A DNA stretch of 64,000 nucleotides, taken from contig NZ_LOAJ01000001.1 in the NCBI RefSeq assembly GCF_001542905.1, forward strand, positions 186,001-250,000, read 5' to 3'. The notes below the pieces were generated by a model that was not told where the DNA came from, ran no database searches, and worked only from the letters and a program-made list of their open reading frames with translations. A program made the translations under genes and the position numbers. The stretch comes from Halorubrum aethiopicum. GTDB lineage: Archaea; Halobacteriota; Halobacteria; Halobacteriales; Haloferacaceae. This document shows, piece after piece, positions 36,521 to 50,982 of the stretch. Position 1 is the stretch's first letter. Every line of letters starts with the position of its first letter.

Positions 36521-38539
36521 TCAGACCTGTCCGACGGCGACGAAGCCGACGTAACAGGCCGCCACCAGCACGCCGGAGTGGAACAGCGCCCCGTACCTGC
36601 CGCGCGCGGCGGCCCCGGCGAACCACCCCGAGGCGAGCATCGTCGCCTGCGCGACCACGTAGAGGCGGAACCGCTCCAGTTCGGGGTGGACGAGGTCGGG
36701 ATCGACGGGGGCGTCGAGCGCGGCCGCGAGCGCGAGCAGGCGGTCCGTCTCCATCACGCCCGCGTTGATCGCGGCGACCACGCCGGCGACCGACAGCGCC
36801 GCGACCCAGCCGACCACGACGTACCGGCGCATCGCCCCGCGGAGCGCCCGCTTCTCGTGGGTCAGCCGGTCGACCTCGACCTGGAGCGTCTCGAACACCT
36901 CGTCGACGGTGCTCCCGGCGTTCAACGCCCCGGCGACCAGCCCGACGGTCCGGGCGGCCAGCGGCGTCCCGACGCGGTCGACGAACCGGTCGAGCGCCGC
37001 GGCGCGCACGTCGCTGCCGGCGGCCGACGCGTCGACCGCGGGGCCGTCGGCCGGAGAGTCTCGACCGCCGTCGTCGACGCCCGTGACGACGGCCGCCCCG
37101 CCGCTGCCGGTGGTCGTCAGCGAGAGGTTGAACGCGAGGTCGGCGACGTCGTCGCGCAACACGCCGAGATCCGTCTCGCGAGCCGCGGCCGCGACCGCCT
37201 CGGGGAACGGGCGGCCGACGGCGGCGTGCGCGGAGACCGCGTAGACGAGGTCGGCGACCCGGCGGTCCTTCGCGTCGTCGATCTGACCGCGCCGGGCGGC
37301 GACGAGCCCGACGGGGAGCGCGAACGCGACGTACGCCAAAAGCGCGACGTTCACGAGCGGATACCCGGCGTACGCGAGCCAGGCGGCCGCGGCCGCCGCG
37401 GGGACGGCCGCGACGGTCGACGCGCTCGCGGGGTTGGACGGCGCGGACGCGAGCACGGCGCGGATCCCCCTCGGCCGCCGGTAGCTCGTGCGGGAGTCGA
37501 CGGGGCGGAGCGCGCCGGTGGCGGCGATGCCGACGAGCCCGACCGCGAGCAGGAACCCGACGGAGGCGTAGACGGCGACCGCGCGCGGCGAGACGGCCCC
37601 GACCGGCGTGTCGACCAGCCGCGAGAGATCCGGCGCGAACACGCTCGTCACCGTGACGGCGACGACGAGCAGCGCCGGCAACACGAGCACCAGCACGAAC
37701 AGCTCCGCGATCGGTTTCAGGTATCGCCGCGCCCGCGTCCGGGCGTGCTCCTGTCGGTGCGCGAGGAGGCGACTCTCGGTCCGGAGGAACTCCGCGAGCG
37801 CCTCGTCGCCGGCGGAGACGTGCTGGCGGAACTTGAGCAGGAACGGTGCGAGCAGGTCCCGCGAGGGCGTGTCGCGGGCGACGCGGCGGAGCCCGGCGTC
37901 GAGGCTGCCCGTGAGCCGCGCCGCGTTGAGCGCCTTCCGGAACGAGACGGCCGTGCCGCCGTAGGCGTCGTTCTCCGCGACCTTCGCGATCAGCGTCCGG
38001 GCGTCGTCGCTCCCCGAGGAGAGCGCGTCGAGGTACCTGACCGCGCCGGGGAGCGTCCGCTCGATCCGGGTCCGGCGCGCGGAGACCAGCCACCGGAGGT
38101 AGAGCCCGCCGGCGCGGACCGTCGCTCGCTTGGCGAGGAGGCCCGCGACCGCCGACAGGGCGACCGCGAGCGCGGCGGGCGGCGGGACGGGAACGGGGAC
38201 CGGCACGCGTGCGCCGAGACCTGACGCGAGCGCGACGGACGCGCCGGGAGCGACCGCGACGGCGACGAGGAAGGCCGGAGCGACCGCCGCGAGACACGCG
38301 ACCCACGAGAGCGCGTACGTCCGCGCGAGGTACGTCTCGAAGCCCGTCGACGGGTCCGCCCCGCGGTAGCGCTGTCTGTCGACGTCGTGACGGCGGTCGT
38401 CGGCGTGGCGGGCGAACAGCGCGCCGAGGAGCCGGTCGAGCCGGGCGAACCGAGGGGGGCGGGGACGGTCGGCGGGGTCGTCGCGTCGGGCCCCGACCCC
38501 GCGTTCTCCGCGGGTCGACGCCCGCGTGCCGCCGCTCAC
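36521..38539 (-). CDS. pilC: type IV pilus inner-membrane platform protein (T2SSF / PilC family)
   Basis: The 672-residue polytopic protein has two T2SSF-type cytoplasmic domains, each with conserved Pro/Gly-rich turns (LRHVARDTPSRDLLAPFLLK-like and GTPLAARTVGLVAGALNAGS), and about nine transmembrane helices. It would anchor the pilus assembly ATPase. GTG 38539 overlaps the stop of the pilB remnant by 4 bp, so it is normally co-translated with pilB. Because pilB is interrupted upstream, its expression in this configuration may depend on the element's own transcripts. No pilin gene lies next to it. Confidence 0.86.
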   Translation of the reverse strand: MSGGTRASTRGERGVGARRDDPADRPRPPRFARLDRLLGALFARHADDRRHDVDRQRYRGADPSTGFETYLARTYALSWVACLAAVAPAFLVAVAVAPGASVALASGLGARVPVPVPVPPPAALAVALSAVAGLLAKRATVRAGGLYLRWLVSARRTRIERTLPGAVRYLDALSSGSDDARTLIAKVAENDAYGGTAVSFRKALNAARLTGSLDAGLRRVARDTPSRDLLAPFLLKFRQHVSAGDEALAEFLRTESRLLAHRQEHARTRARRYLKPIAELFVLVLVLPALLVVAVTVTSVFAPDLSRLVDTPVGAVSPRAVAVYASVGFLLAVGLVGIAATGALRPVDSRTSYRRPRGIRAVLASAPSNPASASTVAAVPAAAAAAWLAYAGYPLVNVALLAYVAFALPVGLVAARRGQIDDAKDRRVADLVYAVSAHAAVGRPFPEAVAAAARETDLGVLRDDVADLAFNLSLTTTGSGGAAVVTGVDDGGRDSPADGPAVDASAAGSDVRAAALDRFVDRVGTPLAARTVGLVAGALNAGSTVDEVFETLQVEVDRLTHEKRALRGAMRRYVVVGWVAALSVAGVVAAINAGVMETDRLLALAAALDAPVDPDLVHPELERFRLYVVAQATMLASGWFAGAAARGRYGALFHSGVLVAACYVGFVAVGQV

Positions 38540-39215
38540 GGCGCGCCCCCGGACCGGTCGTCGTCGCGCGGCGCGTCGTCGACGTGTGCGTCACCGGCGC
38601 GTGCGTTCCCGGGTCGGGCGTTCCCGTCCGCGTCGGTCGCGCGCCGAATCGACCGCGCGGCGCGCTCGACGGTCGCGGCCTCGTCGGCCCGGAGGTCGGC
38701 GAGGAACTCGAACAGTTCGTCGAAGTCGTCGACGCCGTCGCGGACGAGGTACTCCACGTAGCGGTGTTTGGCGGCGAACTCGGACTCGACCGCCTCGAGG
38801 TCGCGGTCGGTCCGCTCGGCGAGTCTCGCGAGCGCGTGGAGCCGCCGGCCGCCGTCGTACGAGCCCGCGGCGTCCGCGGTCGGCGCGCCGTCCATCCGGA
38901 ACCCGCCCGCGGGGTCGCACCACGCGACGGTGTTGTAGTGGACGCTCGTGTCGTCGCGCTCGATCACGCCGGCCCCGCCGTGTTTCGGGTCGCCGGTCCG
39001 GCTCCGCGTCGCGGCCGGGTCGAGCGCGTCGTACTCGGCGGGCGAGAGCGGCTCGACCGCCTGTGCGACGTAGCGGTCGCCGCCGACCTGCCGCGGGAAG
39101 ACCACGAGGTCGATCTCCCGGAGCAGGTACGGCGGGAGCCCGCGCTCTATCGCGCGGTTGACGAGCGTCCGCACGTCCGCGGCGTGGGTGGTCCCGACGA
39201 CGCCGTGGCCCGTGT
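38536..39215 (-). pseudogene. pilB: pilB C-terminal fragment, separated by the element
   Basis: Reading minus from 39213 the frame runs TGHGVVGTTHAADV, the His-box region of type II/IV secretion ATPases, then RTLVNRAIERGLPPYLLRE and to stop 38536 (224 residues after the junction). It has no start codon of its own near the junction; the first ATG is at 39174. Its other half lies 9.8 kb away at 49000-50979. Joined through gcccgtgt, the two give one intact ATPase. Confidence 0.93.
39208..39215 (+). other. attachment core, left copy (attL)
   Basis: gcccgtgt is the left edge of the element and at the same time encodes the TG of the pilB motif TGHG on the minus strand. The identical right copy is at 49027-49034. 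The sequence beyond the 8 bp diverges on both sides. Confidence 0.85.
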
Positions 39216-39221
39216 AGAGTG

Positions 39222-39244
39222 AATATCTATTAGTACCTGTAGTC
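39222..39244 (+). promoter_or_regulatory. promoter/operator of the integrase module
   Basis: An AT-rich box (aatatctatta) is followed by gtacctgtagtc (39233-39244), ending about 18 bp before ATG 39263. The same box-plus-12-mer recurs before the nuclease gene (41271-41282), so the two transcripts may share a regulator. Confidence 0.55.
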
Positions 39245-39262
39245 TAATCATTTGCCTGTATC

Positions 39263-39700
39263 ATGGGCGATCCTGAAACACAAGCGGCCATGACCTACCC
39301 CACCAAGCCCCAATATGAGGGATGGAAGGAGGATGCCGCCGACATGGATATGTCGGTTTCTGAGTGGATTCAGGCTATGGTCGAAGCCGGCCGAAAGAAG
39401 TTCGACGCCGGCGTTGAACCGGACGAAACGCTCCAAGAGGTACGGAAGCACCGCAACGATCTCAAGGAGGAACTGGACCACGCCCGCGAGCGTATCCAAG
39501 ACCTAGAAAACCAGCTTCACCACGGCGAACAAGCCGCAATTCGGGGGTTTGTCGAAGAAAACCCCGGCGCTACCTTTGAGGACATTACCCGCCACGTCAT
39601 TGAGACTGTTCCCGAACGGGTGAACCGTCATCTGGACGAACTCGAAGGTGACGTGTTGTACGTCGACGGCGAAGAATACTACCCACAGGAGGAGAGTTGA
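39263..39700 (+). CDS. element protein with coiled coil, first gene of integrase operon
   Basis: The 145-residue protein starts MGDPETQAAMTYPTKPQYEG. It has a short predicted helix-turn region (about 20-45, DMDMSVSEWIQAMVEAGRKK, resembling ribbon-helix-helix proteins), a coiled coil (about 55-87) and a compact C-terminus (about 90-145) with a winged-helix feel (TFEDITRHVIETVPERVNRH). It could be a DNA-binding regulator or directionality factor for the integrase operon; this is inferred from position only. The next gene starts 2 bp after the stop. Confidence 0.7.
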   Translation: MGDPETQAAMTYPTKPQYEGWKEDAADMDMSVSEWIQAMVEAGRKKFDAGVEPDETLQEVRKHRNDLKEELDHARERIQDLENQLHHGEQAAIRGFVEENPGATFEDITRHVIETVPERVNRHLDELEGDVLYVDGEEYYPQEES

Positions 39701-39702
39701 AT

Positions 39703-40152
39703 ATGTCCGAGTTACGGACGCCGCTGGACCGCCTCGGCGTATTCAAGGAACTTTCCGATGTTCCTAGCGCCCGCCGATTCCACCAATTCGCACCCTCGTA
39801 TGAGGGCAAAGATACGTGGATGGAATACCGGGCGACGGTAGAACTGTCGGACCGTATGGCCGAAGAGTGGACCCGGTTCGCTCGTCGGTGGAAAGAACAC
39901 ATGGACCACCAAGGACGGCACCACGCCTTAGCTCAGCCGGCGGATGTCGAAACATGGTCCGAAGACCTACTGAATCAATTCAGCCGGGATAGATCCTACC
40001 AGCATTGGAACGTGATTGAAGGGTTCTATGAGTGGCTGAAGTGGCATACGGACCACCCCCACACCTACAACCCGTTTCACATGGCCGTTTCCGAACCTGA
40101 CAGTAGCGCCCGTGAGATATGGACCCGCAAAATCGAGAAAGCCAATGACTGA
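39703..40152 (+). CDS. stand-alone SAM-like core-binding-domain protein (integrase accessory 1)
   Basis: The 149-residue protein resembles only the N-terminal core-binding domain of tyrosine recombinases. The helical block LSDRMAEEWTRFARRWKEHM, then GRHHALAQPADVETWSEDLL and HPHTYNPF, mirror the corresponding segments in the next gene's product. It has no catalytic residues. It follows the coiled-coil gene directly and overlaps the next gene by 8 bp. Together with that gene and the recombinase it forms a three-part integrase, like the Int/Orf2/Orf3 operon of the haloarchaeal virus SNJ2. Confidence 0.72.
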   Translation: MSELRTPLDRLGVFKELSDVPSARRFHQFAPSYEGKDTWMEYRATVELSDRMAEEWTRFARRWKEHMDHQGRHHALAQPADVETWSEDLLNQFSRDRSYQHWNVIEGFYEWLKWHTDHPHTYNPFHMAVSEPDSSAREIWTRKIEKAND

Positions 40153-40591
40153 TTCCGACAGAGAAGCACTAGCCGAAGCGTTCGACCGAGAACTAGACCC
40201 GCTCGCCAAATACGCGGAAACTTTCGAAGAGACTGGTGTAGACCCGTTTGAGGTATACGTCGATGAACGGCTCTCAAACAAGGACTTGTCAAAGTCGACT
40301 GTCGGAGAGTACCACCGGACCTTCGAGGAGTGGCGGGCGTTCATGGCTAGGGAAGGCCGCCATCCCGCTTGTCCGAACGAGAATCACATCAAGCGGTTCA
40401 TTGAGTACCTACAGGATGAACGCGAGAACGCCGCCGGAACGATCAAGAACCGACTCATGTACCTCAATGCTCCGTATCAGTATTGGCAGGATGATGCCGC
40501 CTTTCCCCACCCACAGGATTACAATCCGATTGACCTAGCGAAAGAAACCGTCGAACTGAACGGCGCTTCCCCAAAGGAACCCCCCGGTTGA
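40145..40591 (+). CDS. stand-alone SAM-like core-binding-domain protein (integrase accessory 2)
   Basis: The 148-residue protein has a clear phage-integrase N-terminal SAM-like domain (about 30-135): LSKSTVGEYHRTFEEWRAFM, GRHPACPNENHIKRFIEYL, LNAPYQYWQDD and FPHPQDYNP. In ordinary XerC/D-type enzymes this block is fused to the catalytic domain; here a stop codon separates it, with the recombinase start overlapping (TTGA). The reading frames differ, so this is not a simple nonsense mutation of one gene. Confidence 0.8.
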   Translation: MTDSDREALAEAFDRELDPLAKYAETFEETGVDPFEVYVDERLSNKDLSKSTVGEYHRTFEEWRAFMAREGRHPACPNENHIKRFIEYLQDERENAAGTIKNRLMYLNAPYQYWQDDAAFPHPQDYNPIDLAKETVELNGASPKEPPG

Positions 40592-41235
40592 CCGTCAAAG
40601 AGCTTCGGGACAAAATGGTCGATATTACGCATATCCGGGACCGGGCGATTGTCCTAATTCAGTTGAAACTCGGCCTTCGCGCAACCGAAGTGTGTAACCT
40701 GAAGCTCTCAGAAATCCACCTCGCCAATAGCGGCGTTCTGAACCACTACGACGAGATGGGGTCGGTCAGGGCTTTGAAAAACCGCGAAAATGCCGTGTAT
40801 ATCCCGCATGATCGGGAGGGTAACAAGTCACGCCGACCGCGTGTTCTCCCGCTCGATGATGAACTCCGCCACGCGCTTCTACAGTATCTACTAATCCGGC
40901 CAGACAACGGAGAACCGTGGCTGTTCCTCTCCAAGAACGGCCGGACTCAGCTCCGACAAAAGAACGTCAATGTGGTGTGGAAAGATGCTTTCCACCCTGA
41001 ATACGCCGAAACAGAAGATTTCCGAGCCGTTACGAGCCACTACGGTCGACACAGATTCACGACGTTCTGGCGTGTTGAAGAGGACTTGAACCGTGAACTA
41101 ATCAAGTATATGCGGGGCGATACCGCTGGTTCAGCTACACTCGATGACCGTGGGGCGATTGATGAATACATCCACACCTACTACGAGGACATTGAGCCGA
41201 TCTATCGGGAACGGATCTATAAGTTGGGGCTGTAG
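40588..41235 (+). CDS. int: tyrosine recombinase, catalytic domain only (integrase)
   Basis: The 215-residue protein holds the catalytic half of a tyrosine integrase: R31 in LGLRATEVCNLKL, the HxxR box H151-Y-G-R154 (SHYGRHRFTTFW), and the Tyr nucleophile in IDEYIHTYYEDI (Y194 or Y198/199). It starts with TTG at 40588, overlapping the upstream stop by 4 bp. It has no DNA-binding SAM-like N-terminus; that is supplied by the two upstream genes. It should integrate and excise the element at gcccgtgt in pilB. Confidence 0.9.
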   Translation: MTVKELRDKMVDITHIRDRAIVLIQLKLGLRATEVCNLKLSEIHLANSGVLNHYDEMGSVRALKNRENAVYIPHDREGNKSRRPRVLPLDDELRHALLQYLLIRPDNGEPWLFLSKNGRTQLRQKNVNVVWKDAFHPEYAETEDFRAVTSHYGRHRFTTFWRVEEDLNRELIKYMRGDTAGSATLDDRGAIDEYIHTYYEDIEPIYRERIYKLGL

Positions 41236-41262
41236 TCACCCCACATGTTATGGGTAAGAGAC

Positions 41263-41282
41263 GGATATTTGTACCTGTAGTC
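41263..41282 (+). promoter_or_regulatory. promoter/operator of the nuclease gene
   Basis: gatattt followed directly by gtacctgtagtc (41271-41282) repeats the signal seen at 39233-39244. ATG 41297 follows 14 bp later, giving the TATA-to-start spacing of a leaderless gene. Confidence 0.5.
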
Positions 41283-41296
41283 GACTATCTGACCTA

Positions 41297-42565
41297 ATGG
41301 GGATTGCTCGGTTCCTAATCAAAATATTTGGTGCCTTTTTGCTGATCGCGGTTATATTTGCTTTCTTCCCACTATTCGCCGCAATAGCGATCACGATAAA
41401 TTGGCATGGGGCGGCCGATAAATTGGACTTTTTACCGGGTATCGATAGTGAGGAAGCACTAAAATCATTCCTCGCCGGACTAGGGTATGGGTTAGTCCTT
41501 TGGTCTATTCTTATAGTCGTGGGAGGTGGTTCAGACTCTTCTCAGCCAAGCAATACCGCAGAACCAACTTCAAACACAAATCCCACACCTGACCCGTCAA
41601 CGGAACAGGCTCCGGTTCAGAACAATTCGACACAGACTGAAGGAGACAATGAAACCGAGCCATCATCCGATGATGAGATACAAGCCAATACAACCGTAGA
41701 GACATCTACGAACCAAACCACATCCGACGAAGAGGAGAATCAAGTGACAATTGTGGATGTCGTGGATGGGGATACGGTTGATATTCGCTTTGGAAATGGA
41801 ACTAGAGATACTGTACGTTTACTTGGGGTCGACACTCCAGAAGTGAACGGTCAGAACGATCCCGCCGAATTTGAGGGAGTACCAAACAACGCCAACGGCG
41901 AGCAATGTCTCGCAACAGAAGGTAGTGAGGCAAGTGACTATGCGGAATCTCGATTATCAGGTGAGACGGTTGAGCTTCAATTCGACTCTCAATCGTCTCG
42001 AAGGGGTTCGTATGGCCGATTATTAGCATACATTGTCGTTGATGGCTCAAATTTCAATTACCAACTTGTATCCGAAGGGTATGCTCGTGTCTACGATTCA
42101 GAATTTGAACAGTCAGATCGGTTCTACTCCGCTGAAAGCGAAGCACAGAGAAGTGAGATCGGAGTTTGGGAGTGTAGGAATGTAGAAGAGACTACTACAA
42201 GCGACACGTCAACTGGATCCTCAAGTAGCGGAGATAGTCTCGCCGTGGATTATGTCCATGCCGATGCCGAAGGTAATGATCATGAGAATCTGAATGATGA
42301 ATATGTTGTGTTTGAAAATACGGGAGGTTCCACGCTAGATATTGGCGGATGGACGGTTGAAGACGACGCAGACCACACCTATACAATTCCGAGTGGAACC
42401 GAGATCGATTCGGGACAAACAATCACGTTATATTCCGGGTCAGGGAGTGATACAGATTCAGAACTGTACTGGGGTAGTAGCTCTGCCATTTGGAATAACG
42501 GTGGAGATACTGTGATCGTTACCGACAGAAGTGGGAATACAATTATCGACTACTCTTATTCATAG
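41297..42565 (+). CDS. membrane-anchored micrococcal-type nuclease with lamin-tail domain
   Basis: The 422-residue protein has two N-terminal membrane helices (about 9-34 and 57-76) and a Ser/Thr/Asn/Gln-rich linker (about 78-148). A thermonuclease (SNase) domain follows (about 149-297) with DVVDGDTVDIRF, the catalytic Arg/Glu region VRLLGVDTPEV and SYGRLLAYI. A lamin-tail beta domain is at the C-terminus (about 312-420; EYVVFENTGGSTLDIGGW). The topology puts the nuclease outside the cell if the linker is extracytoplasmic. It stands alone and looks like cargo. GC content and codon use are far from host style. Confidence 0.86.
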   Translation: MGIARFLIKIFGAFLLIAVIFAFFPLFAAIAITINWHGAADKLDFLPGIDSEEALKSFLAGLGYGLVLWSILIVVGGGSDSSQPSNTAEPTSNTNPTPDPSTEQAPVQNNSTQTEGDNETEPSSDDEIQANTTVETSTNQTTSDEEENQVTIVDVVDGDTVDIRFGNGTRDTVRLLGVDTPEVNGQNDPAEFEGVPNNANGEQCLATEGSEASDYAESRLSGETVELQFDSQSSRRGSYGRLLAYIVVDGSNFNYQLVSEGYARVYDSEFEQSDRFYSAESEAQRSEIGVWECRNVEETTTSDTSTGSSSSGDSLAVDYVHADAEGNDHENLNDEYVVFENTGGSTLDIGGWTVEDDADHTYTIPSGTEIDSGQTITLYSGSGSDTDSELYWGSSSAIWNNGGDTVIVTDRSGNTIIDYSYS

Positions 42566-42775
42566 CGCGAACACAGATTTCCCTTCAAGTGAACAGGGTT
42601 CACAGGGTTTCACCCTACTTTATTTCTATATACAACTCTCCTCTTTCACTCTCACTATTCAATAGACATGAGAAAATGCTGTGAACCCTGTGATCCCCGG
42701 CAATAGTTGAAGAAAAATCCATTCAGAGACGCTACCCTTAACCAACATTGAGGGTCCAGAACCCGCCGGCGTTGG
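42566..42775. promoter_or_regulatory. non-coding gap with 13-bp inverted repeats
   Basis: About 210 bp between two convergent operons. acagggttcacag (42593-42605) is matched in inverted orientation by ctgtgaaccctgt (42680-42692), 74 bp apart. The first copy is also part of a partial tandem (cagggtt/cacagggttt). The DNA between them is AT-rich with a ctatatac tract. Candidates are a replication-related iteron pair, a regulator site or a terminator. No gene is visible. Confidence 0.6.
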
Positions 42776-42985
42776 TTAAGACTCTCCCAACTCCTCAAGA
42801 TCAATCGGTGGGTGATAGTATATCTCGCCCGTCTCTTGTCGCCGCTTCAAGTTACGGTCCTCATCGACGGTTTCCCATTCCCATGAGAACAGTCCAGCCA
42901 ACGTCACCGTGGGATATTCGTCCGCCGGGTCAGCGTCAAGCTCATCAAGTCGTTGTTTAATCTCGCGTTTACTCTTCCGTGTCAT
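42776..42985 (-). CDS. small RKSKREI-type element protein, paralog 3
   Basis: The 69-residue protein begins MTRKSKREIKQRLDELDADP, the same N-terminus as the two genes upstream (paralogs at 42969-43151 and 43160-43357). The rest differs: AGLFSWEWETVDEDRNLKRR ends in a short acidic tail. It is the last gene of the leftward operon and overlaps the neighbouring gene by 17 bp. Function unknown; the shared motif may be a DNA- or protein-binding helix. Confidence 0.72.
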   Translation of the reverse strand: MTRKSKREIKQRLDELDADPADEYPTVTLAGLFSWEWETVDEDRNLKRRQETGEIYYHPPIDLEELGES

Positions 42986-43151
42986 TGTCGGGTCGTAGCT
43001 GTTCGGCCCATGCCTCCCGAACCAACCGTTCGGGCGGATCGGGATACTTGTCTGAAAAATGCTGTTCAATCACACCGACGCCGTCAACCAAGTCGCCGTC
43101 GTCTAACTCTTCGATCTTCGATTCGATCTCACGTTTTGATTTGCGTGGCAT
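42969..43151 (-). CDS. small RKSKREI-type element protein, paralog 2
   Basis: The 60-residue protein begins MPRKSKREIESKIEELDDGD and ends in an unrelated, charged segment (IEQHFSDKYPDPPERLVREA). Its N-terminus is nearly the same as the flanking paralogs, so this is a tandem family with a conserved first 17 or so residues and variable C-termini. ATG 43151 is placed at the shared start. Confidence 0.72.
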   Translation of the reverse strand: MPRKSKREIESKIEELDDGDLVDGVGVIEQHFSDKYPDPPERLVREAWAEQLRPDNDTEE

Positions 43152-43159
43152 AATCAGGT

Positions 43160-43357
43160 TTATAGGTCCAGCGTCGCCCGCGCGGTGGGGGAAAGGTGTT
43201 CTTCCGGAGAGTCCAGTATCGCCCGCTCTTGTGTGGTTAATCGACCACCGTAAGCGGCCTTCAAGTCGGCCCATAGATAGGCGTGAATCGATACCTGTTC
43301 GCCGGAATCCAGATCGTCTAATGCCGCTTCGATCTCCCGTCTACTTTTGCGGGCCAT
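43160..43357 (-). CDS. small RKSRREI-type element protein, paralog 1
   Basis: The 65-residue protein begins MARKSRREIEAALDDLDSGE and continues with VSIHAYLWADLKAAYGGRLT and LSPTARATLDL. It is the first of three tandem paralogs. Its start overlaps the end of the upstream coiled-coil gene (43341-43607), so all four are one operon. No known family recognised. Confidence 0.74.
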   Translation of the reverse strand: MARKSRREIEAALDDLDSGEQVSIHAYLWADLKAAYGGRLTTQERAILDSPEEHLSPTARATLDL

Positions 43358-43607
43358 CGTTTGTATGCTCCTCAAGTTGGTCCAGCCGTTCGGACAATTC
43401 TTCGAGGTCTTTGTCGGCCAGATACTTCCGCCGGGTCGACAGCGCGGAGATAATCACACGTAAGTATTTCAGTCGGATTCGTTCCTTCTCCGGCGAACGG
43501 ATTCGACCCTCACCAAGTGATTTGTATCGCGCCTGTTCGACTACGTCGCTTAACTCCGCTAAGGCGTCGTCGCGTTGAGATTGTATCTTATCGGATTCGT
43601 CTGTCAT
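43341..43607 (-). CDS. helical/coiled-coil element protein
   Basis: The 88-residue protein is almost wholly helical: MTDESDKIQSQRDDALAELS, then a basic segment (EKERIRLKYLRVIISALSTR) and a coiled coil at the C-terminus (LEELSERLDQLEEH). It resembles small haloarchaeal plasmid/provirus proteins of unknown role. It leads the paralog array and is preceded by about 190 bp without a clear gene. Confidence 0.68.
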   Translation of the reverse strand: MTDESDKIQSQRDDALAELSDVVEQARYKSLGEGRIRSPEKERIRLKYLRVIISALSTRRKYLADKDLEELSERLDQLEEHTNDGPQK

Positions 43608-43794
43608 AGGTATTTACTCGGCTGATTTTTGCTGATTGCCGTCTCACAATGTGTCGCTTAGATTCCGCTTACGCTCGACAATTGATTCCCGGTCAAAACC
43701 GCCACCGGGGTACTGAAAAAATAAAATCCGCGGCCGACTGATACCGATACCATGCCTGTAGGTCCCTCGCCTTCCGGGTCATCGGGATACTGAT
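43608..43794. other. gap between two leftward element genes
   Basis: About 190 bp. Only tiny frames are possible, for example a 29-codon minus-strand frame starting with MTRKARDLQAW near 43778, which I do not trust. A tract of As and Ts near 43718 (gaaaaaataaaa) could hold the promoter of the downstream paralog operon. Confidence 0.35.
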
Positions 43795-44160
43795 TCAATA
43801 GCTAATGTCGTACTCCTGTTTGAGATCCCCCACCCGGTTCTGTTGCTTCCGAACGGTTCCAAGCGATCGAAGCGACTCCGCCTCCGCTTCATGTCCATGC
43901 TCAATCAACCACGCATAGACCCGCTGAATGTCACCCTTACTGGACGTTCGGAATTCATCGTGTTTCGGATCGAATTCCGGGTGTTGGCGGATTAGCCGAA
44001 GCTGTTCCTGAATTGAATCCGTGCGTCGTACCTCGCTCGCGGCGTCATCTCTCCCGCGTTCCTTGAGCTTTTCATAGCCCCGTTTCACTTTGCCACCGTT
44101 CGGCGTCTTTGCGTTATCCGTCTCTGGATCGAAGCCTCTGATAGACTCTGAGCTACTCAT
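43795..44160 (-). CDS. element protein with charged helical sequence
   Basis: The 121-residue protein (MSSSESIRGFDPETDNAKTP) is hydrophilic. It contains two similar internal segments, KTPNGGKVKRGYEKLKERGR and TSSKGDIQRVYAWLIEHGHE, suggesting an internal duplication. Function unknown. Its start overlaps the end of the next upstream gene by 4 bp. Confidence 0.66.
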   Translation of the reverse strand: MSSSESIRGFDPETDNAKTPNGGKVKRGYEKLKERGRDDAASEVRRTDSIQEQLRLIRQHPEFDPKHDEFRTSSKGDIQRVYAWLIEHGHEAEAESLRSLGTVRKQQNRVGDLKQEYDISY

Positions 44161-44489
44161 AGATTGTCCTCCAATTTCTGTCGGACGCTCCGCCAACTCC
44201 GGGAGTGGAGGCTGTTTTTCAGCGTCTCAAGTGCCGCCTTCTTATCCTCAAGCTCTTCGGCGTGTTCCGGCGTGCGACCCTTCATGAGGTCAATACGCCG
44301 CTGTAAAGTGTCGATCTCGGCTTGGATCTCCGAGTTGCTGTTCAGCGTATCTAAGTCGTACTCCTCCTTGAGAGTGTCAACAACCACCGCCGGAGACGTG
44401 TCGCCGTCAGAATTTGCTTTCTCGCGTTCTAAGGCGTCCTGAAACTCTTTCCGCTTCTGTTCAATCTCGTCAGTAGTGTTCGTACTCAT
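44157..44489 (-). CDS. coiled-coil element protein
   Basis: The 110-residue protein is highly charged and helical with a predicted coiled coil (about 54-95, EIDTLQRRIDLMKGRTPEHA). No family recognised. It is translationally linked to the gene downstream (ATGA-type overlap at 44157-44160). Confidence 0.66.
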   Translation of the reverse strand: MSTNTTDEIEQKRKEFQDALEREKANSDGDTSPAVVVDTLKEEYDLDTLNSNSEIQAEIDTLQRRIDLMKGRTPEHAEELEDKKAALETLKNSLHSRSWRSVRQKLEDNL

Positions 44490-44542
44490 GGTTGAATTTC
44501 TAACTGCTAAGTCCTCGCCCCGATGGGTCATCGGCCGAGTGT

Positions 44543-44725
44543 CTAACAGCCTTCGCGGGCTTCCTGACAGATCACGCCGACCAACGCGGGGAGGTCGATA
44601 ATCTGAATCAAGCCGATCGTCAGAACAGCCACGGTCCCGTTCGCATGATCGGCGAAGGCTAATATCGCTACCAAAACGACCGCCACCGTGTTCCGATCAA
44701 CTAACTCGGATAGTGTGACGTTCAT
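44543..44725 (-). CDS. small two-helix membrane protein of the element
   Basis: The 60-residue protein (MNVTLSELVDRNTVAVVLVA) has two hydrophobic segments (about 13-26 and 31-53) and one short loop. Its ATG overlaps the stop of the large primase gene by 4 bp, which supports real translation. Size and topology are reminiscent of small viral/plasmid membrane proteins; function unknown. Confidence 0.6.
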   Translation of the reverse strand: MNVTLSELVDRNTVAVVLVAILAFADHANGTVAVLTIGLIQIIDLPALVGVICQEAREGC

Positions 44726-47271
44726 TGGTACTCTCCTAATCCTGTTCCGTGGGATTCCGCATTGTCGTCTGACGGCTCCGGTTCTGGACGGGGCGCGTCG
44801 TTAGTCAACTCAAGGCCGACATAACACCGGGTCCGGCTTCCATCAACGGTCCGCTGTCGCTGGACCACGTCGCCGCGTTTGGTTAGCTCGGCCGTGAACT
44901 TTTGGAGTGATTCACGTTCTAAGCCATTGTTTCGAGAGAACCGAAGATATGAGTCGTATGCCCCAACGGTTCCCCCGCTTGTGGTTCGCTTCGGAACGCT
45001 CCCACCGTCGTCGGTGTTCGCATATCGCTCGATGAATTGCTCAATACTGTTCCCATACCGCTCCCACTTCTGACGATTCTCGAAGGGGTACGGCTCATTA
45101 GTGAATTTCCCCTGTTCCATCAATCGGACATAACCGTCTATTGCCCAATTCAGGATCCCCGGAAGTTCGCTTATCAACTTCTCTGTGAGCTGTGGATCTT
45201 GGTCCTCGCGGGGAACGCTTTCAGGGAAGAACACGGTGAGCCATCGATTCCAGAACCCGTCGTCATCAACGTCGCGGTCCGGCGCACGGTTGGCCGCGAA
45301 GATATGCTTCGTCGTCGGTGAAAACTTGAACACCGGCTTTTGCTTTCGCTCGGCGTCCAAGGCGTCGCCGGCGATTATCTCTTTGACCTTCCCCGTGTTT
45401 TCAATCGTTGAGTTATCCAGATCGTTCCGGATATTGATCGCCGTGTTCACAAGCCGCGCCGGTCCCCAACGCTCATTAGCGAGGTACTGGACGCTTGTGC
45501 TACTTGTGGCGGTACTGTCGTCGCCGCCGAATAATGCTCGAACCACGTCTAAGAACACGCTCTTCCCGGCGTCAGTCGGCCCGAACAGGATTAGGGCCTT
45601 CTTCCGCGGAAGATCCCAATGGTGTAGGCAAAACCCAACATACTCCTGTAGGAGCGGGATCGATTCGGGTTCGACCACGTCACCAAGAAACGCCTTCCAT
45701 TGGGGACAATCCGCTTCGGGGTCGTATTCCGTTTCAAGCCGCCACCGAACGCGATCGTCCGGCTCAATCGGCCGACAGTCGCGCGTCTCCAAGTCCAGAA
45801 GGCCGCTCTTGGTAGCAATGGTTCCGGGCGGGCCGCCACCGAAAGCCGTTTCATCGGCGCGTGAGCGGGCTTTCAATTGGTCCAGCACTTCCGTCCGTAA
45901 CCGACTCCTGTAGTGATCGCCAAACTCGGAATCCAGCCACCGCCGGACAAATTCCTCACCGTGGCTATGCCAGATCCCAGACGTATCGCACCAGTACCAT
46001 TCTTCGCGTTTTGACAGCCACGCGATCCGTTCATCCGGAATCTCTCGAAGCGCGACGTTCTTTAACTCCTGTAAGGAGAGGTCGGCATACGGATCCCGGT
46101 CGCGTTCTCTCACGGTCCAGTCGCCGGCGTTCTTGAGGAAACTATCTCCTCCCGCTACCTCATTAACGGCCATCGTTTCGGCTGTCGTGAACCGGTCCGG
46201 ATCCTCGAACCGTTTGACAAGCTCGGCGGCGTCGTACTCTTCGGTCGACTGGACTTTGACGACTTGCCCCTGTTCATCAAACCACGTTGAATCAATCGCG
46301 TTCTCGAAGGGTGTTTCGCGGGTCTGACCGCCGGGGGCAACGCCCGACGATCCACTCTTCGGCGGCGTCCAGCCGCCTTCTTTCGCTTTATGGATTAGTG
46401 TGCCAAGTGTGACGCCCGCGCCTTCCGAAGCGTCCGACCAAATCCATTCAATGCTACTCTCGGCGGCGTCATCGAATTTGCCGCCACGTTTCGACCACTT
46501 CTCGAACAGTCGCTTTCCCCTACTTCCGTCGTCAAAGTCGTGAACAGCAAACCCGATCCGTATCCAGTCGGTATGAGGTAGATCGGGGTCGACGTGGGAT
46601 AGTGCCTCTTCAATGTCTTCGTCGGTAAGGTACTCCTCGCGGTCGCCGGCGCGGCTGGATTGCGCTTCTGTTCCCAACGACGGGGCGCGATCGTGAACCG
46701 ACTTGTAGGCGTCAAACAGCCACGGCGCGGGATTGATGGATTCGATCGTTCTCCCGCTTAGGCTATGCGGCTCGCCCGTAAACACCGTGAACTTATTCTG
46801 TAGGATGTCAACGCCTTCGTGTTCTCCAAGTTGGCCATCGGTCCACCAGTCGGGTATCTCGCGACCTTCCACCGGGATATGTAACCCCGTTCCGCTGGTT
46901 GAATATTCGACGTATGTTCCCTCGAATCTGTCCAGATCGGGAACCCAACTCTTGAGGCTTCCATCATCCGCAATCCCGCCGTCAATGTCGATACAGGCAT
47001 AACGCCCGGTTTCATAGTCGTCGTTTCCGGCGGCCATGATGTAACCAATACCCCAACTCTCGCGGGCTTGTGCGGCGTCTCTCGCCGCTTCAAACGTATG
47101 CCATGTCTCCGGGTTGGACCAACTAATGTTGAAGTCTCCCTTCCAATGCGGCCGCTTAGGTGTCTCACCAGAAGCGTCCCACATGAGCCATTGATCGCGG
47201 GCCTTCAATTCGTCTGGAATTGGTCCGTACTGTTCAACCGAATCCGCCGGGGTTGAATCCGCTCGGCTCAT
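44722..47271 (-). CDS. primase-polymerase / D5-like superfamily 3 helicase (replication protein)
   Basis: The 849-residue protein combines an N-terminal primase-polymerase domain with a C-terminal D5/P4-type helicase. The primase part has catalytic acids D95-I-D97 in YACIDIDGG and SGTGLH (126-131). The helicase part has Walker A near 565 (LFGPTDAGKSVFLDVVRALF), ENTGKVKEIIAGDALDAERK and FAANRAPDRDVDDDGFWNRW. Such proteins initiate replication of plasmids and viruses. It is transcribed leftward and ends inside the next small gene. It is the best evidence that the element can replicate by itself. Confidence 0.9.
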   Translation of the reverse strand: MSRADSTPADSVEQYGPIPDELKARDQWLMWDASGETPKRPHWKGDFNISWSNPETWHTFEAARDAAQARESWGIGYIMAAGNDDYETGRYACIDIDGGIADDGSLKSWVPDLDRFEGTYVEYSTSGTGLHIPVEGREIPDWWTDGQLGEHEGVDILQNKFTVFTGEPHSLSGRTIESINPAPWLFDAYKSVHDRAPSLGTEAQSSRAGDREEYLTDEDIEEALSHVDPDLPHTDWIRIGFAVHDFDDGSRGKRLFEKWSKRGGKFDDAAESSIEWIWSDASEGAGVTLGTLIHKAKEGGWTPPKSGSSGVAPGGQTRETPFENAIDSTWFDEQGQVVKVQSTEEYDAAELVKRFEDPDRFTTAETMAVNEVAGGDSFLKNAGDWTVRERDRDPYADLSLQELKNVALREIPDERIAWLSKREEWYWCDTSGIWHSHGEEFVRRWLDSEFGDHYRSRLRTEVLDQLKARSRADETAFGGGPPGTIATKSGLLDLETRDCRPIEPDDRVRWRLETEYDPEADCPQWKAFLGDVVEPESIPLLQEYVGFCLHHWDLPRKKALILFGPTDAGKSVFLDVVRALFGGDDSTATSSTSVQYLANERWGPARLVNTAINIRNDLDNSTIENTGKVKEIIAGDALDAERKQKPVFKFSPTTKHIFAANRAPDRDVDDDGFWNRWLTVFFPESVPREDQDPQLTEKLISELPGILNWAIDGYVRLMEQGKFTNEPYPFENRQKWERYGNSIEQFIERYANTDDGGSVPKRTTSGGTVGAYDSYLRFSRNNGLERESLQKFTAELTKRGDVVQRQRTVDGSRTRCYVGLELTNDAPRPEPEPSDDNAESHGTGLGEYQ

Positions 47272-47462
47272 CGGGCCACCTCCTCACGGACTCGAAGCTC
47301 ACAGACACCACACCGGTAATCCGTCAATTCGTCCGGCGTTGACTCAAGCGTTGGCCGGTCGCAATCGGGGCAATTGAATCCAGCGTAACGACTTTCAACC
47401 TTCGGTTCGCTTACTGATTTAGACGGAACCCCACAACCGTCTATGCTCTGTCTTCGGCTCAC
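47268..47462 (-). CDS. small zinc-ribbon protein
   Basis: The 64-residue protein has two CxxC pairs (FNCPDCDRP and YRCGVCELR), forming a zinc ribbon about 20 residues long. It overlaps the primase gene by 4 bp and the upstream gene by 4 bp, so it is the middle gene of a replication operon. A nucleic-acid-binding accessory role is likely but not shown. Confidence 0.78.
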   Translation of the reverse strand: MSRRQSIDGCGVPSKSVSEPKVESRYAGFNCPDCDRPTLESTPDELTDYRCGVCELRVREEVAR

Positions 47463-47668
47463 CCTTCCGTCACCTCTTGAATATCTAGTCGACCGTCTCT
47501 CACACCGTACTGGATACTATCAGCGTTTTCAACGCCAAGCCTATCCAGATCCGTCTTTCCAAGGAACAGACAAACACCAAGCGTCTCTCCGTCTGCCGTA
47601 GTGTTGACTGTCGCTTGTGCGTGTTCGGTCCGCTCGATACTTCTCTCTCGCGTAGTAGCATTATTCAT
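47459..47668 (-). CDS. small beta-rich protein, possible AbrB-like DNA binder
   Basis: The 69-residue protein (MNNATTRERSIERTEHAQAT) has a C-terminal part (about 40-66, KTDLDRLGVENADSIQYGVR) with the beta pattern and spacing of SpoVT/AbrB swapped-hairpin domains. That match is weak. It starts the replication operon, where a copy-control or autoregulatory protein would be expected. ATG 47668. Confidence 0.6.
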   Translation of the reverse strand: MNNATTRERSIERTEHAQATVNTTADGETLGVCLFLGKTDLDRLGVENADSIQYGVRDGRLDIQEVTEG

Positions 47669-47782
47669 TATCTAGCGGTAGAATTGCTAAATGCGCGGGG
47701 CCGATCCCGCGTCTTTGTAGTAACGCCGTCAAACGGGTGGTCACTCTCACACAACCACACCCGGACGGCGTTCTCTGATACG
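47669..47782. other. short gap with a possible tiny minus-strand gene
   Basis: Directly after the RHH gene a TTG-started minus-strand frame of about 42 codons (LRSDVSENAVRVWLCESDHP, ending near 47674) is open and overlaps that gene. It would be part of the same operon, but the start codon is weak and I do not recognise the product. Otherwise nothing seen. Confidence 0.3.
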
Positions 47783-47905
47783 TCACTCCTCAAGGAGCCG
47801 ATCCACTACGTCGTTAAACGCTTCTCCGGGTTCCTGCTTCCGTGAATTGAGTCGTTGCCAATTCTCCCGACTAATCTTAATCGTGGTATGTTGTTTCGTA
47901 CTCAT
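47783..47905 (-). CDS. tiny ribbon-helix-helix-like protein (antitoxin-like)
   Basis: A 40-codon gene reads MSTKQHTTIKISRENWQRLN, then SRKQEPGEAFNDVVDRLLEE. The pattern 'TTIK(I/L)S.E..QRL..RK...E.F.DVV.RLL' is that of small haloarchaeal VapB/CopG-like ribbon-helix-helix proteins, which bind DNA as dimers. It would lie upstream of the replication operon and could regulate it. No VapC-type PIN toxin gene is next to it. ATG 47905; stop TGA 47783-47785. Confidence 0.75.
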   Translation of the reverse strand: MSTKQHTTIKISRENWQRLNSRKQEPGEAFNDVVDRLLEE

Positions 47906-48313
47906 TATGTTTTTAATCGTGATTATTCAAATACCAATTCTACAGAACCAACTTGGACGCTATTCCCCACAGCGGGTTACACGCCCTCATCAATACCAGC
48001 GTATTTTTTACAAAATGCCGAGGGACGCTGGTCGGACTGGTTGTTTTGACGAAATCAAATACCTACTTCCCGGATTCATGGTGGGTGGCTCCACCATCGG
48101 TTGTAGGTCCTCCCGGCCGCCCAAAACCACGCACCTCCGAAAAACGCGCGTGATCATCGTCACGTCCGACTCCCACGCTGGCGGGGGAGAGGCTTCCATG
48201 CGGGGTCGGTGATTCGGTGGGTCCGCCCCGTTCGCCCCGATCCTCCGGGACTTGTCGTGACTGATCATACTAGCGACAGCATTATAAACTGGTATCTTCT
48301 AACAAAATATCGT
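47906..48313. other. 400-bp structured intergenic region, candidate origin
   Basis: This gap lies between the leftward replication operon and a rightward gene. It has AT-rich ends and a GC-rich structured middle. The clearest structure is a nested pair: ACCTAC at 48061-48066 pairs with GTAGGT at 48103-48108, enclosing a 7-bp perfect stem with a 6-nt loop (atggtgg 48078-48084 and ccaccat 48091-48097). A second possible hairpin (ctccc...gggag) lies near 48170-48190. Position next to the primase-helicase operon fits an origin or a small regulatory RNA; neither is shown. Confidence 0.5.
48281..48288 (+). promoter_or_regulatory. TATA box of the right-end element gene
   Basis: attataaa lies 26-33 bp upstream of ATG 48314, ideal spacing for a leaderless archaeal transcript. 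Confidence 0.6.
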
Positions 48314-49003
48314 ATGAGTGATTATCCGTCTTCGCTGTTGACCAGCGGACAGCGGGAGTACCTCAAGGGAGAGAAAGAGGCATCCAACGAGAGCCAGATG
48401 AAGAAGCGAATCCGTGAACGTGTTTACGCCGGCTTTCGAGAGGACGGGGGAATTTTGCTTGATGAACTCTCGATTGAAGAACGGCGTCGGATGTTCCGAC
48501 ATTGGGAAGAAAGGGAGGACGAACGACACCGCGATGGCATTCCTCTCCGTGAGGACGATGAGTTGATGAACACCTTCGAGAAATCCACGTTAGAAATCAA
48601 TCTCGGGAGTCTTCTGGCGTTCATTTACTTTGGCGTTGAGGAAACGAACCTCTCTGATTTTGAAGAACTCTTAGAAACCGGGATTCAGCTTGGGGCACAA
48701 AAATACGGTTACAACGTGAGTAAGCTGAACTTCGAGGTGGAATTCGAGGAAGCACTAACACCCGCAGATACGTTTGAGTACATGAAAAACGAGGAAGTGT
48801 CGCTTGAAGAGTTAAAGGAGCATATTCTGATGAGTCACCTCAACACCATAGCACAAGCCGACAGGTTCGATCTTGAGGAATTGCCCGAACGGTTCAGAGA
48901 GTTCATAGTTGAAGAGAATAAGTCGTTTCAAGAGACACAGGAATGGGTAGAGTCAAGCGGATTTCGCGAGGTACTTAAGAAACTGGAAGAACGCCGGGAC
49001 TAG
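48314..49003 (+). CDS. haloarchaeal accessory protein (SLLTSGQREYLKGE family)
   Basis: The 229-residue protein begins MSDYPSSLLTSGQREYLKGE, an N-terminal signature I recall on many haloarchaeal accessory and provirus proteins (a conserved 'LL...QREYL.G' start followed by IRERV and a hydrophobic strand). The rest is acidic and helical, with no membrane segment. Function unknown; a regulator or immunity-like role for the element is a guess. Its stop overlaps the truncated pilB stop on the opposite strand by 4 bp, exactly at the right end of the element. Confidence 0.72.
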   Translation: MSDYPSSLLTSGQREYLKGEKEASNESQMKKRIRERVYAGFREDGGILLDELSIEERRRMFRHWEEREDERHRDGIPLREDDELMNTFEKSTLEINLGSLLAFIYFGVEETNLSDFEELLETGIQLGAQKYGYNVSKLNFEVEFEEALTPADTFEYMKNEEVSLEELKEHILMSHLNTIAQADRFDLEELPERFREFIVEENKSFQETQEWVESSGFREVLKKLEERRD

Positions 49004-49011
49004 TATACTAG
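49000..49011. repeat. 12-bp perfect palindrome at right end
   Basis: ctagtatactag sits 15 bp inside the right attachment core and holds the stop codons of two genes. Its position near the core suggests an integrase or excisionase arm site; there is no copy at the left end. Confidence 0.5.
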
Positions 49012-49026
49012 CATTTCTTCAGAATA

Positions 49027-49034
49027 GCCCGTGT
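49027..49034 (+). other. attachment core, right copy (attR)
   Basis: gcccgtgt is identical to the left core at 39208-39215. In the minus frame it encodes TG of NTG; the base before it (a) and after it (t) differ from the left copy. Confidence 0.85.
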
Positions 49035-50982
49035 TCACCGTCTCCGCGAACGTCTCGAAGCTGGCGGGCGTGTTGATCTCGGCTATCACCTCGACGTCGG
49101 GGTTGAGGTAGTTGGCCTCGGTCATCAGCGTCGCCATGCTCACCGCCTTGTACGCGTTCTCGTGGTCGCGGGTCGTCAGCGCCACGCCGGTCTCGTGGGG
49201 GAGCCGCACCTCGCGGGAGCCCTCGTCGATGGAGACGGGCCGGTCGTCGAACGGGATGAAGGGCATGTGGGCGTTCATCAGCGTCGTCTTGCCCGCCCCC
49301 GTCGGCCCCGCGAAGAGGACGACGCCGCGGTGTTCGTACAGCAGCCACAGGAGCGTGACGAGCTCGGTCGAGAGCGCGCCGTGGGCGACCAGGTCGACGG
49401 GCGTGAGCGGGTCGGCCGCCTGCTTCCGGATCGAGACGTGCGGACCGTCCGCGGAGATGACCGGGAGCGCGATCGCACACCGGATCGTCTCGGAGACGCC
49501 GGGAACGTCGAGGTTGACCTTCGCGGAGGGCGTCGAGGCGTTCAGCTCCACGCCGTCGCGGGCGGCCAGTCGCGTGACGACGTCGACGAACCGCGACTCG
49601 TCGGTGAACGCGAGGTTCGTCGGGATCCGGCCGCCGCCGGCGAGCGGGTCGAGTCCGCGCCGGTCGGTCGCGGCAGCGTTCCCGCCGGCCGCCGCGTCAC
49701 CGCCGGCCACCGTGTCACCGCCGGCCGCGTCGGTATCGATCGTCGCGTCGCTCTCCGCGGCCGCGTGGCCGTCGACCGCCGCGCCGCTCCCGGCGGCCAC
49801 GTCATCCCCGGCCGCCGCGTCGCTCCCGCTCTCCGCTCCAGCCAACACCGCGGGCCGGGGAACGACCTTCACGCGCTCGCCGACGCGGTTTGCCTCGACG
49901 TCCTCCAGGTGGGGGTCCCGGATCGGGACGGTGAGGACGCCCTCGCCGACGAAGTCGCGGAGCACGTAGTAGACGAGGTCGTCGAGGCGGTCGGCGGCGT
50001 ACGCCGGGTCGACGCTCGGAGCGGCGAGGTCCCGGTCGGCGAGGGCGCTCCGGACGCCCTCGCGGGCGGTCGCGACCCACCCCCGCGGCGAGGAGCCGCC
50101 GGCGAGCCGGCGCGAGAGGTACCGGCGGGCGTGCTCGGCGACGAAGGCGGTGCGGTCGTCGATCAGCCGGTCGACAGGGGTTTCCCAGATCCGGCGCTCG
50201 CAGTCGCAGATGAGCGCCTCGTCGCCGGGGAGGAGGTCGGGCTCCAGCGCGGCGTACTTCGTCTCGAAGGCATCCGAGCCGAGCAGCCGCTCGCGGTAGA
50301 TCACCACGTCGACGGCGAAGCCGGCGAACTCGACGGCGTACCGGGCGAGCCGCTCGCCGGCGACGCGCTCGACGTACTCGGCGTCGGCGTCGATACCGGT
50401 CTCGAGCGGGGCGAACGCGTCCGTGTGGACGACGAGTTCGCGATCGTCGCCGACGTCGGCGACCGCGATCCGGCCGTCGAGCGCGACGGGCGTGAGGTCG
50501 CCGAACAGCCGCAGCTCACACAGCGCGTGGTGGTCGATCCGGCGGCGGGCGGCCGCGGTCGCCGAGAGGAGGCGGTCGAGCACGCGCTCGTACTTCGGCT
50601 CGAAGCCCGCCTCCGCCCGCTCGACCGCGCCGGCGCGGGTGAGCGGTCGCCGGCCGCGGACGGCCGAGAAGTGCTCTCTGACCCGCCCGAGCGCGCGCTC
50701 GTCGGCGGGCGAGAGGGGCGGTTCGCGCACGTCGTAGCCGAACCGGCCGCCGTCGCGCTCGCGGATCGTCGCGACGACGCCGGGCGCGGACTCGTACTGC
50801 GCGCGGACGTCGGGTGCGTACCAGGCTTCGGGGTCGTCGGGCGGGACCGGGGCGGGAACCGAGGCGTCGTCGTCGCCGGAGCCGCCGCCGATCCGCAGGG
50901 TGGGAGTCGTCACGTCTCTGCGCTCGTCTGCTCGACCGGAGTTCGACCATCGGATATAACGATTCTCTTTTCCTGACATGTC

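Follow-up and report, generated by a model that had tools for sequence, protein, structure and literature searches.

Within the window, the whole 64-kb stretch of haloarchaeal DNA analysed here, lies an integrated element that carries a nuclease gene, P0001. An earlier note, made from the sequence alone, had described the product as one chain in which a two-helix anchor and a long polar linker are joined to an SNase and a lamin-tail domain (LTD). Pfam, hydrophobicity analysis and an AlphaFold2 model confirm this description. The gene also sits where the note had placed it, between an integrase (40112-41235) and a P4-type primase (44722-47271). Table 1 gives the coordinates.

Table 1. Features of the integrated element, its flanks and the nuclease gene.
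Feature	Position	Strand	Remarks
Integrated element, 9,819 bp	39208..49026		GC drop, 8-bp core at both ends, in-frame flanks
Left attachment-core copy	39208..39215		
Right attachment-core copy	49027..49034		
Split secretion-ATPase gene, C-terminal part	38536..39207	-	In-frame join; genus matches
Split secretion-ATPase gene, N-terminal part	49000..50979	-	PF00437, E 7.1e-14
Promoter repeat copy 1 (TATA-like box + operator-like bases)	39228..39244	+	Upstream of first integrase-operon gene
145-aa coiled-coil/HTH-like gene, first of integrase operon	39263..39700	+	Kept beside related integrases
151-aa conserved integrase-operon gene	39697..40152	+	Weakly similar to integrase N-terminal half
Integrase N-terminal SAM-like part	40112..40591	+	PF02899, E 5.4e-8
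Integrase catalytic part	40588..41235	+	PF00589, E 1.6e-12
Promoter repeat copy 2	41266..41282	+	Box centre ~27 bp before nuclease start codon
SNase-LTD nuclease P0001	41297..42565	+	ORF, 422 aa
P0001 two-helix anchor module	41297..41524	+	aa 1-76
P0001 polar acidic linker	41525..41740	+	aa 77-148
P0001 SNase domain with Cys204/Cys293	41741..42175	+	aa 149-293
P0001 lamin-tail domain (LTD)	42221..42559	+	aa 309-421
P4-family primase/helicase, 849 aa	44722..47271	-	TIGR01613, E 3.6e-48
Right-end gene, 264 aa, no assigned function	48209..49003	+	Weak relative in sister element

Between about 39.2 and 49 kb the GC content drops from about 0.70 to 0.50-0.61. What flanks this region? On its two sides lie the two parts of one secretion-ATPase (T2SSE) gene, and an 8-bp core, GCCCGTGT, stands at both ends. 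When the flanks are joined, the open frame is restored, reading ...AETVNTGHGVVGTTHA.... A 101-aa query spanning the junction gave 47 matches in 46 of the 52 genus genomes; 41 of these cross the junction without a break, covering 100-101 aa with identities of up to 99%. The other six are partial, and those in G000 (the genome of the window itself) and G009 start just before the junction. The element is of mobile type, with a direct-repeat core and both filled and empty sites.

The filled site in G009 holds a sister element. Compared with the window element, its integrase operon is 68% identical in the first gene and 71% in the second; the integrase is 72-73% identical and the primase 42%. No nuclease directly follows the integrase there; the next gene starts 15 bp on, and the contig ends inside the element, so that a nuclease may lie further on. 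The survey of neighbours that the earlier note had called for found no pairing of nuclease and integrase: across 20 neighbourhoods of related integrases (10-20 kb taken), there is no match to P0001. On these two counts, a reading in which the nuclease belongs permanently to the integrase module is rejected. Because the gene is absent beside the related integrases and directly after that of the sister element, P0001 is accessory cargo; the note had likewise called it cargo of the element.

Within the integrase operon, the frame of the integrase breaks off at a short homopolymer run that lies between the two halves of the gene, so the integrase is not intact as read. It is unbroken in relatives, the G009 sister element included, and the break may be a sequencing error. 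The second gene of the operon is possibly a duplicated DNA-binding domain; in L354 it aligns with the N-terminal half of the integrase at 28% over 116 aa.

Several further features of these regions were observed. Four of the 20 neighbourhoods (L128, L129, L133 and L136) have a related integrase module inside or next to the same secretion-ATPase gene, mostly just past the Walker A region and not at the window's site. Downstream of related integrases, L127 and L128 have pairs of genes of ~360-380 aa, and L126 has genes that by eye resemble a type I restriction set. G038 encodes a lipobox SNase protein ~11 kb from a related integrase, perhaps within one element. In the window, small ORFs at 42776-43375 with MxRKSKREIE-like starts resemble tandem paralogues, and similar arrays occur in L148.

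The nuclease and the integrase operon are preceded by the same repeat. The 17-mer TATTWGTACCTGTAGTC has exactly two copies in the 64-kb window at up to three mismatches, where 0.01 would be expected. Its TATA-like part stands at a distance typical of leaderless haloarchaeal promoters. The sister element keeps the TATA-like part (TATTAGTA), but the bases that come next differ and form AAGAGGG-n7-CCCTCTT. The operator-like part is therefore element-specific, and the nuclease gene has the window element's version. We infer that the nuclease is co-regulated with the integrase operon.

In P0001 the SNase match (PF00565, aa 172-292) has an E-value of 2.9e-18 and 66.7 bits against a Pfam cut-off of 21, and the LTD match (PF00932, aa 309-421) an E-value of 1.6e-21 and 77.1 bits against 34.3. 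Hydrophobicity is highest at aa 14-32 and 58-76, and the linker (aa 77-148) has 16 D/E and no K/R. We looked for a lipobox at the N terminus; none is present, and the two hydrophobic helices stand there instead. Is the active site complete, a point on which the earlier note had made its proposal depend? Residues were assigned through the alignment and S. aureus SNase numbering, and the catalytic Asp/Arg/Asp/Glu/Arg set has no gap: D159, R174, D179, E182 and R241. D159, R174 and E182 are kept in all 111 aligned rows, D179 in 109 and R241 in 107. In the AlphaFold2 model, built from 26 sequences and with a mean pLDDT of 78.9, residues 2-45 and 52-76 are helical, confidence is low in the linker, and the SNase and LTD regions contain strands. 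The SNase region of the model has the SNase fold, and all 50 PDB matches listed by Foldseek are staphylococcal nuclease entries. P0001 is the sole SNase match in its genome; two other frames of this genome, of 493-498 aa, match the LTD, and one of them has a lipobox. As a separate observation, the terminal domain of a viral tail-protein family (PHROG phrog_7043) matches the P0001 LTD with an E-value of 8.4e-36.

The earlier note had called the domain order unusual for archaeal mobile elements. This part of the note does not hold: SNase followed by LTD is the standard haloarchaeal order, found in plasmid-borne proteins as well. P0001-like matches (E <= 1e-30) occur in 202 of the 293 genomes of the order, some of them LTD-only or SNase-only. 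Scans of genome contigs and viral contigs with P0001 as a single protein found no relatives; an alignment-based search of the same two sets gave loci in each (the best 80 of more). Those in viral contigs, again the best 80 of more, match the SNase part at 26-39% identity.

The N-terminal module is one feature that sets P0001 apart. Sorted by motif, 113 SNase rows comprise 91 with a lipobox, nine with a two-helix anchor and 13 others; judged by sequence, the module in P0001 replaces the lipobox, and with it the predicted lipid anchor, of its relatives. The core of the module is NxxGxAxxLxxLPGI, and its profile gives 26 matches in 25 of the 293 genomes. A Pfam scan of nine module-bearing proteins produced no hit over the module in any of them. 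The partners are diverse: SNase plus LTD, SNase plus Excalibur, DUF4352, and a protein with carboxypeptidase-regulatory and PQQ-propeller domains. Several module proteins have no known domain, and one stops directly after the second helix. A single chain in L268 (2788-4296, Haloarcula amylovorans) combines a zinc-ribbon-like motif with the two-helix module and with SNase and LTD domains; the N termini of L268, L317, L318 and L325 were inspected by eye. Do the anchored nucleases descend from one lineage? In a quick LG+G4 tree of the SNase domain (113 rows, with the anchored group named beforehand), a single lineage is rejected (p-AU 2e-7): the nine do not form one clade, in a tree whose long branches include the anchored L268. 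The module therefore seems to have been combined with SNase on more than one occasion, and was probably exchanged repeatedly.

What does the nuclease do? We consider it somewhat probable that P0001 is an extracellular-DNA (eDNA) nuclease of the Hvo_1477 type, tethered at the outer face of the membrane, which the element carries as accessory cargo and which serves mainly in feeding. The two-helix module would insert in the cell membrane in place of a lipid anchor, and the acidic linker would give the enzyme reach through the S-layer. The SNase domain, stabilised by a disulfide, would cut DNA near the surface using a divalent metal, while the LTD would probably help to hold DNA or the surface at high salt. 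The gene would have its own promoter, and because the operator-like repeat is common to it and the integrase operon, its expression is probably tied to regulation of the element. The likeliest benefit would be feeding on eDNA, for a host in which this is the only SNase gene; the enzyme might in addition limit the entry of foreign DNA. Nutrition, which the earlier note had listed as one option, is the best-supported benefit, by analogy with Hvo_1477.

Might the element instead use a surface nuclease mainly as an exclusion device, against the DNA of competing plasmids, viruses or vesicles? The gene is element-borne, its promoter repeat is that of the integrase operon, and SNases are encoded by other viruses and proviruses, namely phages of the SPbeta group (yokF) and a pleomorphic provirus of Archaeoglobus. 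In L148 an anchored SNase-LTD gene comes after one for a tape measure (phrog_58, E 7.6e-37); an integrase, a primase-like gene and genes related to those of two small window proteins all lie within 20 kb. P0001 also matches the PADLOC candidate family C3a212, 'SNc+LTD' (E 4.6e-23); a PADLOC scan of the other seven element proteins gave no convincing defence match. Against exclusion as the main role, the relatives of P0001 are mostly lipoproteins in ordinary haloarchaeal genomes, one of which serves growth on DNA, and the integrase of the sister element is not followed by a nuclease gene. Moreover, a tailed virus injects its DNA past the cell surface. We regard this role as unlikely, though the best placed of the alternatives.

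The feeding model requires that the nuclease lie outside the cell. The earlier note's view of P0001 as a surface-type nuclease is supported. Cys204 and Cys293 occur together in 53 of 111 rows, are both missing from 52 and occur singly in six, as expected for a disulfide. P0001 and the anchored L268 keep both. Of the nine anchored nucleases, six have neither cysteine in the sequences compared, and L183 is without the first at least, so among anchored forms the disulfide argument applies only to P0001 and L268. Summed over 17 anchors, the charges come to +47/-18 on the N side of helix 1 and to +49/-27 within the loop, with +3/-82 for the first 40 aa past helix 2. By the positive-inside rule these charges suggest an N-in, loop-in, C-out arrangement, which needs a first segment that does not span the membrane. 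This segment has 17-32 residues and a nearly invariant proline. The AlphaFold2 model speaks against an outside location here: residues 2-45 form one continuous long helix with no re-entrant hairpin. Glycosylation sequons in the linker were considered as a further sign, but their excess is not significant (five against 2.8 expected; 10% of shuffles reach five).

If both helices are plain membrane crossings and the N terminus is cytoplasmic, the nuclease is inside, with SNase and LTD facing inward and acting on entering DNA or on that of the element. The two predicted helices and the positively charged N terminus agree with such an arrangement, as does the zinc-ribbon-like N terminus of L268, since motifs of this kind are usually cytoplasmic. 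The cysteine pair, the charges past helix 2, the K/R-free linker and the exported-type partner domains of the module all argue otherwise, and a constantly active DNase in the cytoplasm would harm the cell. Given the co-occurring cysteines, the flanking charges and the exported relatives, we infer that the nuclease probably faces outside; an inward-facing enzyme seems a shade less likely than an exclusion device.

It is very unlikely that P0001 is a chance-acquired passenger of no lasting benefit to host or element: its absence from the 20 related neighbourhoods and from the position after the sister integrase would fit, as would the broken integrase frame, but the 422-aa frame is intact, all active-site residues are present and the promoter repeat matches the element's own. 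We give just as little credence to a two-part block to DNA entry, in which the element, whose insertion splits a pilus-type secretion-ATPase gene, would also express a tethered surface nuclease from the operator shared with the integrase operon, with an interchangeable archaeal anchor module holding the protein N-in and C-out by a non-spanning first hairpin.

The placing of a module without a Pfam entry before several exported-type domains indicates that haloarchaeal surface nucleases exchange membrane anchors. A nuclease of surface type can also be carried by an element that sits in a secretion-ATPase gene and bears a matching promoter repeat. If P0001 is outside and active, feeding on eDNA or the exclusion of foreign DNA would be linked to archaeal mobile elements. 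Literature searches, as far as their listings and passages of a review (PMC8371274) show, gave no report of an element-borne SNase-LTD gene or of this secretion-ATPase gene as a haloarchaeal integration site.

The closest known system is Hvo_1477 of Haloferax volcanii, described in PMC3929857 as a surface lipoprotein of 327 aa with a lipobox, SNase and LTD. Growth on DNA, for this species mainly a source of phosphorus, was impaired when the gene was deleted (PMC3929857). Both proteins belong to a haloarchaeal family of surface type with SNase followed by LTD. Hvo_1477, however, is a chromosomal lipobox lipoprotein, whereas P0001 is encoded within an integrated element and bears a two-helix anchor; because it lacks the lipobox and has the two helices, P0001 is a variant of the Hvo_1477 type and not a plain member. 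YokF of the Bacillus phage SPbeta group, listed as a surface-bound lipoprotein in Table 2 of PMC3929857, is likewise an SNase-family nuclease on a mobile element. It matches P0001 at about 34-36% identity in the SNase part only, leaving the LTD and the two-helix module unmatched. The EcnA calcium-activated nuclease (NF047969) is the best NCBIfam match over the SNase domain, at 131.3 bits, below its curated cut-off of 180; its model has 151 positions and covers neither LTD nor anchor. The MBL-LTD lipoproteins (ComA-like, Hlac_1867; PMC5118699) resemble P0001 in joining an LTD to a DNA-related enzyme at the haloarchaeal surface, but carry a metallo-beta-lactamase domain where P0001 has SNase. 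PADLOC C3a212 has the same domain pair as P0001 and is a candidate defence name only. In enzymes of the DNaseI family, the LTD has been proposed to bind DNA at high salt (PMC4486849). The SNase-LTD order is thus already known; less ordinary are the anchor, the cargo status, the shared repeat and the position as sole SNase gene of the genome. P0001 presents a known enzyme family in a new arrangement, with a swapped anchor, as probably element-regulated cargo in a secretion-ATPase gene.
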